Assembly: GCA_018660835.1 (NCBI GenBank) | Contig: JABJJN010000008.1 | Coordinates: 234,977 to 298,976 of the forward strand | From: Gemmatimonadota bacterium | GTDB taxonomy: Bacteria > Latescibacterota > UBA2968 > UBA8231 | DNA length: 64,000 bases | Direction: 5' to 3' | Part shown: piece after piece, positions 32,873 to 36,470 of the stretch | How the letters are laid out: each line of letters opens with the position of its first letter | Position numbering within the stretch: the stretch's first letter is position 1 | Notes under the pieces: generated by a model | Told to the model about the DNA's origin: nothing | The model's database searches: none | Seen by the model: the letters and a program-made list of their open reading frames with translations, nothing else | Program-made: the position numbers and the translations under genes

Positions 32873-33922
32873 TCAGGTCGATGACGCCAGAAGCCCTTCT
32901 TGTTCCTGCTGTTTCCGTTGATTCTGCCAATCATAATCGACGGGACCATCATAGAATGCCGAGGGTGCCTCAATAGCCCACATCTGTTTACGAATGAGCC
33001 AGTTGTCCGGGTCACACACGACGGCCTGGCGCAATTGTTCCACCGCTTCCTCCTGCTTGTCTCGCGACAACAGCACCAGCGCCAGTTGCAGACGCGCATC
33101 CGCCTCTGCCTCAGCAGGGGTCAGCGCCCGCGTCGTGGCGTCATCCAGTTGCTGCCAGGCCACTGGGATCTCTCCTGTGCCTGCCCAGGCTTCGAGCTCG
33201 GCACGGAAATCATCATCACCGATGTTGACCAGGCCGACGGGACGGACCAGACGCCCCTGCGCGTCGAGGACAATTGCGACGGGGACGTACTTCAATGCAT
33301 AGGCCTTACCGATCGCATTGTGCTGATCGGTTAGTCGTGTGAATGTAACCTTCGCCTCGTCCAACCATGGCGTGGACGCAGAGGGTCCCTGGACATCGCA
33401 GGCGATGGAGATGACCTGAACCCGGTCACCATACTGCTCATGAAATGACTGCCACCCGGGCAGTTGGCCTCGGCATCCTCACCAGGAGGCCCACATGTAA
33501 AAGACGGCGGGTTTGCCGATCACATGCTCAGAGGACACCATGGCCGTGCTGCCATCCTCGGGCAGTCGGATCTCCGGCGGACGATCGCCGATGCTCAGGC
33601 CCAATGAGGCGGCCACGTGTCCTACTTGCAGTGCGTCATCGTCACACAAATGCCACTGGAGTTCGAGGGCTTCAGCGAAGGCACCGAGGCGACCGAAGAG
33701 GATGCCATCGATATTGCGTGTGTCCCCATCCGACAATGGGATACAGATCTCTGCGTCCCCCTCGCGACATATGCCCTGGCGCCCGGCGTCGATCTGTTTC
33801 ACCACACAGGAGACGAGGGGCGCGAAGTGATCCAGTGGTACCCAGGCCTCGTCGTCTTCGCGCCTGGCGGGCGGCGCCAGTTTCTGCGGCACGCCCTCTA
33901 CGATCAATTCAAGATCTGTCAT
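32873..33922 (-). CDS. selenocysteine-containing thioredoxin-like protein (UGC motif)
   Basis: The frame is interrupted only by TGA at 33479-33481 and continues unchanged on both sides, giving 349 residues with Sec at 148. The context YMWASW-U-GCRGQLPGW matches TlpA/ResA thioredoxins (WASWCGPCRAELP) with Sec replacing the first Cys and one residue fewer between the pair (UxC). Downstream, VISIACD and YVPVAIVLDAQGRLV complete the thioredoxin fold, then a TPR-like helical tail (~275-349). The N-terminal 130 residues contain three Cys and no known domain. A hairpin 15-31 bases after the UGA is the candidate SECIS. ATG at 33922 follows GGAAG. Annotated naively, it splits into two pieces. Confidence 0.82.
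33448..33464 (-). promoter_or_regulatory. candidate bacterial SECIS element, UGC thioredoxin gene
   Basis: Starting 15 bases after the UGA, ACTGCC pairs perfectly with GGCAGT around a five-base loop CGGGT. The geometry (six-bp stem at +15 to +20 and +26 to +31, loop +21 to +25) equals that of the hairpin in the neighbouring selenoprotein gene and resembles the position of the E. coli fdhF SECIS loop. Confidence 0.65.
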
Positions 33923-34150: not shown

Positions 34151-35104
34151 TCACTCATCGAGTGAATCCCAGTCATGGGGGGCCGACTGCAGGGGCAGTT
34201 TAAGCTGCAGAAATTGCGGTGTGTGACATACCGTCTCATCACACGCCTGCATGCTGATGTGCACGATCGGTTGAATGTCCACTTCCTCTGCGGACAGGCC
34301 GCGGCACAGAATCTTGATCGTGACGAGGCCTTCGTATACGGGCAACCGCTCATCGATCACAGGTAGATGCAGCATTCTCGTCTCTGGATACCGGATCTCG
34401 TCGACGACAAGGTGATCTACATCGGCTTCGATCTCGATATGCAATGGGATGTAGCCCTCTGGTAGTGGCTCCCCGTAGAGGTGTTCCCCTCTGGGCAGAT
34501 CGATCTCGATGGTCAGCAGATTCAGCTGCTGTGGCCGAATGATCGGGGCGGCGAACCATGCCCGGATCTCCCCATGTCCGGAATCCAAGCGCGTGCCGTC
34601 ATGTCCTGCAGCTAGCCCGAATCGCTCCTGCACTGCATTGGCCACCGACTCGCGAATACGATAATCTGGACCAAAGTGTTTGTCGAATATGACCCCTTCA
34701 GCATCGACGAGATACATCCCCGGATGCGGCACACCATAGTGCTTGTGGTCAGGTTCGATGTCTTCGTTGAGCAGCCCCCAGGCGCGGATGACCCGACTGT
34801 CTGCGTCAGACAACAGCGGATAGTCGATGCCATACCTGTCGGCAAACCGCTTCAGGATTTGCTGTGAATCAGGACTGATCGCGATCACGGCGATGCCATC
34901 GGCTTCGAATTGTGCTTTGTGTTGTTGCAGCTCGACCAGCTGCGTGCGGCAGAAGCCTCACCAGGAGGCGGACCGATAGAACAGAATCAGAGCACGGCGG
35001 CGACCGGTCACCGTGGACAGGCGAACCGGTTGCCCCCACTGATCATTCAGTTCGAAGTCGTCTACGGCGGCACCGATGGCTGGACCCGTTGGACGCGCTG
35101 TCAT
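34151..35104 (-). CDS. selenocysteine-containing peroxiredoxin-like protein with DsbD-alpha-like domain
   Basis: A 317-residue product if TGA at 34958-34960 is read as Sec49. The context FYRSASW-U-GFCRTQLVELQ is the AhpC/TSA-like redoxin active site with UxxC in place of CxxC. VIAISPDSQ, a DYPLLSD segment and PGMYLVDAEGVI complete the redoxin fold (to ~160). Residues ~180-317 resemble the N-terminal domain of DsbD, including its redox pair in SMQACDETVCHTPQFL. So a selenol peroxidase/thiol module is fused to a thiol-relay module; function is inferred. No signal peptide is visible. A perfect hairpin with a GGTCG loop follows the UGA. The start ATG at 35104 lacks an obvious ribosome binding site. 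Confidence 0.85.
34927..34943 (-). promoter_or_regulatory. candidate bacterial SECIS element, redoxin gene
   Basis: GCAGCT pairs perfectly with AGCTGC around loop GGTCG, beginning 15 bases after the UGA. The loop contains GGTC, as in the apical loop of the E. coli fdhF SECIS recognised by SelB. Confidence 0.75.
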
Positions 35105-35144: not shown

Positions 35145-36470
35145 TCATGGTATCACCACCGGTTCCTGGCCTGGGGATTCACCATTCTTATCGTTAATGG
35201 TCGCACCGGAGGGCGCCAGCACGGGGCCAGCAAGCAAGGGATCCAGGGTCGCCACCATCCACGTGTGGAGTCGGTCCTTCATGTCTTGAAGCGCCTGTGA
35301 CGCCTCATCATTGGCGGCCTCGCCATCGGCACCGATCAGATTGCGTGTCTCATTCGGATCGAAAATCAGATCGTAGAGTTGCTCCTGCGCCACCTCTCGC
35401 TGCGGCCAGTCGTGGTCGAGCCACACATCCTTGGCTTCACTCTCGTCACAGTTGGGCATGACGGGTGTCGTCTTTTCGTCGTCATAGCGCCTGATGTATT
35501 TCCACCGACGTGTGCGCACCGCTCGTTGTGGCTCATAGGCTGCGTGGTAGTTCACCTCCGCAAAGACCTGCTCATTCACACTCTCCACCTCACCAGCAAG
35601 TAGTGGCAACAGCGAGTTGCCCTGTAACCAGGAGGGCTGCTCGATCTGCAGCAGGTCACAGATCGTCGGATACAGATCGATGTGGGACACCATTTCGTCG
35701 CACACCTTGCCGCCGTCAAATCCACCAGGTCCACGGATGATGAGGAAGATGCCCATGCCATGATCCGTGAGATTGCATTTCATGCCGGGGTAGGCCAGAC
35801 CATGATCGGTTGTGCAGATCACGAGGGTATTTTCAGCCAAACCGTTGCGCTCGAGGGCCTGCAGCACGCGGCCATGTCCTTCATCCATTCGCCGAGCACT
35901 CTCGTGATAACCTGCTGTCATCTGCCGTATCTGCACAGAATCGGGCAGTGGATCAGGTGTACGGACATAGCGGGAATTTTCCTCAGGCATCTGGGGAAAC
36001 TTCAGATGTGTCTCCTGATATCCGACATCAAGGAAGAACGGCGTCTGTGGCTTGCCATCGAGAAAGGTCTCCGCCGCAGCGGATACGTTCTTTGCCTGCA
36101 GATTCTCGTGGTCGAGGACCTCGTCGAAGCCGATGGTCTGTGGCCCATCTTCGCGTGCTGCCACGTGTTGCATCCCAGCCAGGACCGTGTGATATCCCGT
36201 CGCCTTCAGTGTCGTCACCAGATGTTGAGCGTAATCATTCAGTGAAAAGCCACGGTGCGCCAATCCCAGCATGCCACTGGAGTGTGCACTCTGCCCCGTC
36301 AACAGTGCCGCGCGACTCGGGGCACTGGTCGGCGCCGCGCAGAAGGCCTGCCGAAAGAGCACACCCTCCTCGGCCAAGCGCTGCAGATTGGGCGTTGGCA
36401 CGGCGTGACCCATGGGTTGGATATATCGACCGCTGTCATGGGAGTGCAGGTAGACGATGTTGGGCAGCAT
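35145..36470 (-). CDS. type I sulfatase, Ser-type active site
   Basis: A 441-residue sulfatase-family protein. The signature is TSAPSRAALLTG, with Ser rather than Cys at the position converted to formylglycine, so maturation would need an anaerobic radical-SAM sulfatase-maturing enzyme (anSME); none is in the window. Further metal-site residues are seen in CTTDHGLAYPG. No signal peptide. It lies 14 bases after the Gfo/Idh/MocA gene and 40 bases before the selenoprotein gene on the same strand, so it is in a likely operon of sulfated-sugar breakdown. Confidence 0.88.
   Translation of the reverse strand: MLPNIVYLHSHDSGRYIQPMGHAVPTPNLQRLAEEGVLFRQAFCAAPTSAPSRAALLTGQSAHSSGMLGLAHRGFSLNDYAQHLVTTLKATGYHTVLAGMQHVAAREDGPQTIGFDEVLDHENLQAKNVSAAAETFLDGKPQTPFFLDVGYQETHLKFPQMPEENSRYVRTPDPLPDSVQIRQMTAGYHESARRMDEGHGRVLQALERNGLAENTLVICTTDHGLAYPGMKCNLTDHGMGIFLIIRGPGGFDGGKVCDEMVSHIDLYPTICDLLQIEQPSWLQGNSLLPLLAGEVESVNEQVFAEVNYHAAYEPQRAVRTRRWKYIRRYDDEKTTPVMPNCDESEAKDVWLDHDWPQREVAQEQLYDLIFDPNETRNLIGADGEAANDEASQALQDMKDRLHTWMVATLDPLLAGPVLAPSGATINDKNGESPGQEPVVIP

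Follow-up and report, generated by a model that had tools for sequence, protein, structure and literature searches.

Does the TGA that interrupts a redoxin reading frame in the window (the whole 64,000-nucleotide stretch of DNA that was analyzed) end translation or encode selenocysteine (Sec), and what could the protein do if this codon is read through? An earlier note, made from the sequence alone, had placed a Sec redoxin fused to a DsbD-alpha-like domain at 34151..35104. These coordinates proved correct, and the gene lies on the minus strand, which the note had not stated. Read from 35104 to 34151 with TGA as Sec (U), the frame encodes 317 residues, terminates at a TGA and contains one internal TGA, codon 49 (34958..34960, read as 34960-34958), and is thus intact on both sides of this codon, as had been claimed. 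The UGA is located in the motif SASW-U-GFC of an AhpC/TSA-type, peroxiredoxin (Prx)-like redoxin domain (residues 10-139; 34688..35077), and both U49 and its UxxC partner Cys52 (34949..34951) fall inside the Pfam AhpC-TSA domain. The expectation that standard annotation would lose the active site was also borne out: ORF calling with translation table 11 returned 34888..34151 alone, a product of 245 aa (residues 73-317) from which the active site is missing.

Matches to the fusion were found in 9 of the 64 genomes of the phylum, patchily distributed over seven genera in two families and sharing 38-66% identity. The UGA occupies the same codon in all eight aligned genes, within the motifs SASWUGFC, SASWUGSC, SADWUGFC and SADWUGYC, and Cys52 is invariant in this alignment. 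Homologues ending at the TGA had been named beforehand as evidence against a selenoprotein; the relatives instead read on through the UGA. The copies differ in their state of preservation. L017, L019, L021 and L022 are intact, L020 (G055) has one later TAG past the UGA, and L018 (G060) has a frameshift near its start, possibly an assembly error, and a run of Ns at its end. L023 (G027) and L024 (G045) are decayed, and a remnant found by profile search, L086 (G028), is missing the active-site region. Five full-length copies carry no stop other than the UGA. Homologue and profile searches of the 64 genomes recovered no full-length form with Cys at the Sec position, and no Sec-to-Cys change was seen within the phylum, the gene being either kept with Sec or decaying. 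A search of contigs gave a single generic redoxin (32% identity over 130 residues), a search of plasmids gave generic redoxins only and no fusion, and a search of viral contigs gave no match.

The broken copies in G027, G045, G028 and G055 could be taken to mean that the gene is decaying, that the UGA genuinely terminates translation, and that what follows it is either a relic or a short ORF of its own. However, Nei-Gojobori comparison of the window gene with L017 gave dN/dS values of about 0.26 (0.32/1.21) for the part before the UGA, 0.12 for the redoxin part downstream of it and 0.14 for the C-terminal domain. The low values past the UGA imply that the downstream sequence evolves as a translated protein. 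Purifying selection on both sides of a UGA that keeps its position across this range of identities, together with the five full-length copies, the conserved hairpin and the Sec machinery described below, renders the decay of a gene with a genuine stop highly improbable.

The perfect six-bp hairpin with a GGTCG loop that the earlier note had described 15 bases past the UGA is exactly as stated. Its sequence is GCAGCT-ggtcg-AGCTGC (34927..34943, read 34943-34927), with the 5' arm at +15..+20 after the UGA and the loop, GGUCG in the transcript, starting at +21. It thus forms a stem-loop just past the UGA whose small apical loop includes G, in line with the criteria for bacterial SECIS elements of PMC1088965. 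The model RF00031 (SECIS_1) did not match here, but as it matched in no control genome either, this negative carries no information. A perfect 6-bp stem is present in all seven non-decayed copies, where the first two loop nucleotides include a G and the loop is at +21 or +22, and the stem is lost in both decayed copies, L023 and L024. Three codon solutions for the stem were observed (CTG-GTC-GAG, TTG-GTC-GAA and CTC-GTG-GAG), so that both arms of the stem have changed without loss of pairing. The exact geometry, a 5-nt loop at +21, occurs at 5e-4 of positions in the sequence examined from the genome of the window (G000). Four other Sec genes of this genome have a perfect 6-bp hairpin after their UGA, in two of the four with a 5-nt loop at exactly +21. 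Taken alone, the hairpin is weak evidence, because about 10% of synonymous recodings of the QLVELQ stretch of the window gene also yield a 6-bp stem; the corresponding fraction is 2-17% depending on the sequence, since QLVELQ is easily palindromic, and we rejected the hairpin on its own as proof of a SECIS element. The product of these fractions over three clades is about 3e-4 if the clades are assumed to be independent.

The search for selA, selB, selC and selD that the note had proposed found the complete set in this genome, so the second outcome that it had named as refuting, a lack of the Sec machinery, did not occur either. SelA (C15:10864-12225) scored 469 bits and matched TIGR00474, SelB (630 aa) is encoded on C20, and a tRNA-Sec with anticodon TCA lies at C22:15276-15370 (66.6 bits vs a gathering score of 47). 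SelD (C4:28285-29205) is itself a selenoprotein with the motif TCGUAAK, and its UGA is followed by a perfect 6-bp stem at +18 (GAGTCC-ggtc-GGACTC). The genome is a draft with an estimated contamination of 8%; most of the concern about contamination is removed because selD and the window share a contig. Across the phylum, the fusion was found in 9 of 46 selA-positive and in none of 18 selA-negative genomes, a pattern that agrees with the Sec reading but was given no weight, being too weak and too confounded by kinship. The open frame would equally be expected if UGA had been reassigned throughout the genome, for instance to Trp. Yet the fusion gene and its neighbour both end at TGA, long ORFs follow table 11, the internal UGAs examined sit at redox positions with a hairpin after each, and a tRNA-Sec with a TCA anticodon is present, which leaves reassignment with a negligible likelihood.

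Four observations together decided for the Sec reading: the hairpin is maintained by different codons, unrelated Sec genes share its geometry, the UGA is conserved, and the genome has the complete Sec machinery. Judged from the sequence, UGA 49 almost certainly encodes Sec in a real gene. The decoding genes and the sequence signature are in place, and SelB and tRNA-Sec would be expected to insert Sec at this codon, aided by the hairpin just downstream.

The redoxin domain scored 104.5 bits against PF00578 (AhpC-TSA; cut-off 26; E 4.6e-30). An AlphaFold2 model built on the eight-row alignment had a mean pLDDT of 85.9 and a pTM of 0.79, and in this model the domain resembles AhpE and PrxQ with Z of about 20 and an rmsd of 2.0-2.4 over about 150 residues. 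These two peroxiredoxins are the best PDB relatives by sequence as well as by fold, and Sec is a strong peroxidatic nucleophile. Both points are consistent with a Sec peroxidase in which Sec49 would be peroxidatic and the DsbD-alpha-like domain would regenerate it, making the enzyme self-recycling. The active site argues against this interpretation. In the sequence alignment, U49 corresponds to the Thr of the AhpE motif TGIC and C52 to its peroxidatic Cys, so the Thr of TxxC/TxxU has been replaced by Sec itself, and P128 aligns with AhpE Arg116, the residue that is mutated in 4xih (R116A). With neither this Thr nor the catalytic Arg, the domain is not a peroxiredoxin proper, and a thiol:disulfide oxidoreductase appears more likely than a classical peroxidase. 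Moreover, the Prx-like class in which UXXC replaces TXXU in the same fold (PMC1088965) has been named thiol:disulfide oxidoreductase (PMC1088965, PMC13188914). We regard the self-recycling peroxidase as unlikely.

By fold and motif, the protein belongs with these Prx-like UXXC selenoproteins (PF00578; PMC13188914 Table 1), with which it shares the peroxiredoxin-type fold, UXXC in place of TXXU and a bacterial SECIS-type hairpin after the UGA, but it presents them in a new domain arrangement: it adds a C-terminal DsbD-alpha-like domain, and no Cys form of it was seen. Assignment to the SelL-related redox proteins (NF040769) was rejected on a score of 49 bits against a curated cut-off of 120.

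The C-terminal domain (residues 191-297; 34214..34534) was recognized by Pfam DsbD_N (PF11412) at 26.8 bits, close to the curated cut-off of 25, and five copies of the fusion scored between 26.8 and 52.6 bits. Its profile matched E. coli DsbD-alpha (E 0.003; 1jpe and 3pfu), with the Cys pair of the latter aligned to C288/C293 (CDETVC; 34226..34243). Modelled alone, the domain reached a pLDDT of 89.3, and the eleven best fold matches of this model were N-terminal domains of DsbD or ScsB with Z of 10.5-11.9 (the highest over 109 residues), the next unrelated structure scoring 9.3; 1z5y was among its Foldseek matches. Pfam, the profile with its Cys pair and the predicted fold thus agree with the earlier proposal of a fused domain carrying a DsbD-type Cys pair. 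The protein is not a whole DsbD: its 317 residues contain only AhpC-TSA and DsbD_N, and the transmembrane beta and thioredoxin-like gamma domains are absent. The domain also departs from DsbD alpha, which normally forms the periplasmic N terminus of a membrane protein: here it is C-terminal, the protein shows no evident signal peptide or membrane segment, and the cysteines are spaced C-x4-C instead of C-x5-C. No signal peptide was evident by eye in any copy of the fusion, and the protein is presumably cytoplasmic.

E. coli nDsbD hands electrons to CcmG, DsbC and DsbG, and its complexes with DsbC and CcmG have been solved (PMC7347389), so that a DsbD-alpha domain fused to a redoxin echoes a pairing already known. 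We consider it likely that the locus is a functional selenoprotein gene whose product, soluble and composed of two domains, is a thiol/selenol-disulfide oxidoreductase in which the alpha domain acts as redox partner. In this protein, Sec49 and Cys52, held in a peroxiredoxin-type thioredoxin fold, would carry out dithiol-disulfide exchange, C288/C293 would serve as their fused redox partner, and the alpha domain would most likely relay electrons between Sec49 and a reductant or substrate outside the protein. The built-in reductant relay suggested in the earlier note is plausible. Against this overall reading we counted the patchy distribution of the gene, its several broken copies, the failure to find Cys homologues, the lack of an evident signal peptide in a protein with a normally periplasmic type of domain, and the draft state and estimated contamination of the genome.

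An inventory from 2026 covering 119 prokaryotic selenoprotein families or subfamilies lists Prx-like UxxC, redoxin family UxxC and TsoB proteins (PMC13188914); a search of its table and text revealed no redoxin/DsbD-alpha fusion, and literature searches found no description of a selenoprotein redoxin/DsbD fusion. TsoB (rhodanese/DsbD fusion-like, NF045694), compared by name only, is likewise a selenoprotein in which a redox domain is joined to a DsbD-like part, but its redox domain is a rhodanese instead of a redoxin and its UxxxxU motif contains two Sec residues. The inventory of selenoproteins would thus gain a fusion in which a Sec redoxin is linked to a domain with which redoxins are known to dock, and the electron path to a selenoenzyme becomes testable within one polypeptide.

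A second selenoprotein gene (32873..33922, minus strand; 349 aa) lies directly downstream of the fusion after a gap of 228 bp. Its UGA (33481-33479) is part of the stretch WASWUGCRGQLPGW in a ResA-like domain followed by a TPR-like tail, and a SECIS-like hairpin, ACTGCC-cgggt-GGCAGT, follows at 33448..33464 with its loop at +21. The product resembles the ResA-like WAxxUGC family NF041054, carrying WASWUGC in a ResA/TlpA-like domain (model positions 24-202 of 354), yet its 118.5 bits fall short of the cut-off of 300, and it is thus related to this family without being a member by curated score. The two genes form a pair, in the same order, in the genome of the window and in G059. The earlier note had mentioned neither this neighbour nor the link to selD seen in a relative. 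In G060, selD is followed after 6 nt by the ATG of the redoxin, the fusion, a gap of Ns and a WAS#UGC gene. TGA-bearing relatives of the WASWUGC gene adjoin selB, selD or the tRNA-Sec gene in 15 genomes (G019, G025-G038), which suggests that this selenoprotein is a resident of sel clusters.

These arrangements bear on a different role, in which the fusion and the WASWUGC protein would serve the reduction or delivery of selenium for SelD and not general disulfide chemistry. The start of the redoxin immediately after the selD stop in G060, the WASWUGC genes beside selB, selD or tRNA-Sec, and the presence of such a gene next to the fusion in G000, G059 and G060 all point in this direction, and PMC13188914 treats the source from which SelD obtains selenium in vivo as an unsettled question. 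However, the fusion adjoins a sel gene in one genome only, G060, and has other neighbours elsewhere: a conserved MNASQ gene follows it in G054 and G055, and an apparent ABC transporter in G025. Furthermore, selenium genes could lie together because they are co-regulated or transferred jointly. We rate a role in selenium handling as quite unlikely, and the same applies to its specific form, a cytoplasmic relay of the two proteins that would reduce or channel selenium for SelD. If true, such a relay would explain both the WASWUGC genes in the sel clusters of 15 genomes and the position of the fusion right after selD; selD clustering in one relative and a second Sec gene that often resides in sel clusters make the pair a candidate for this function.

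Several further observations were made alongside. A sulfatase gene (35145..36470, minus strand) precedes the selenoprotein gene in the same orientation, with about 40 bp between its end and that gene, and a sulfatase-like gene, identified by eye, is also found upstream of the fusion in G059. The genome of the window contains another redoxin with an in-frame UGA (L011, G000:C50:186856-187170; AHWUGPC), whose hairpin GCAGCT-cgtgc-AGCTGC at +21 has a geometry identical to that of the fusion. It also contains a Bcp-like gene (L063, G000:C29:98639-98938) with TPGU, the TxxU motif of the true peroxiredoxin type, and the hairpin GGATTC-cgtgatc-GAATCC at +22. Finally, L087, L088, L093 and L096, from genus g16, are stand-alone Sec redoxins with the motif YRGYWUPHC that occur without a DsbD-alpha domain.
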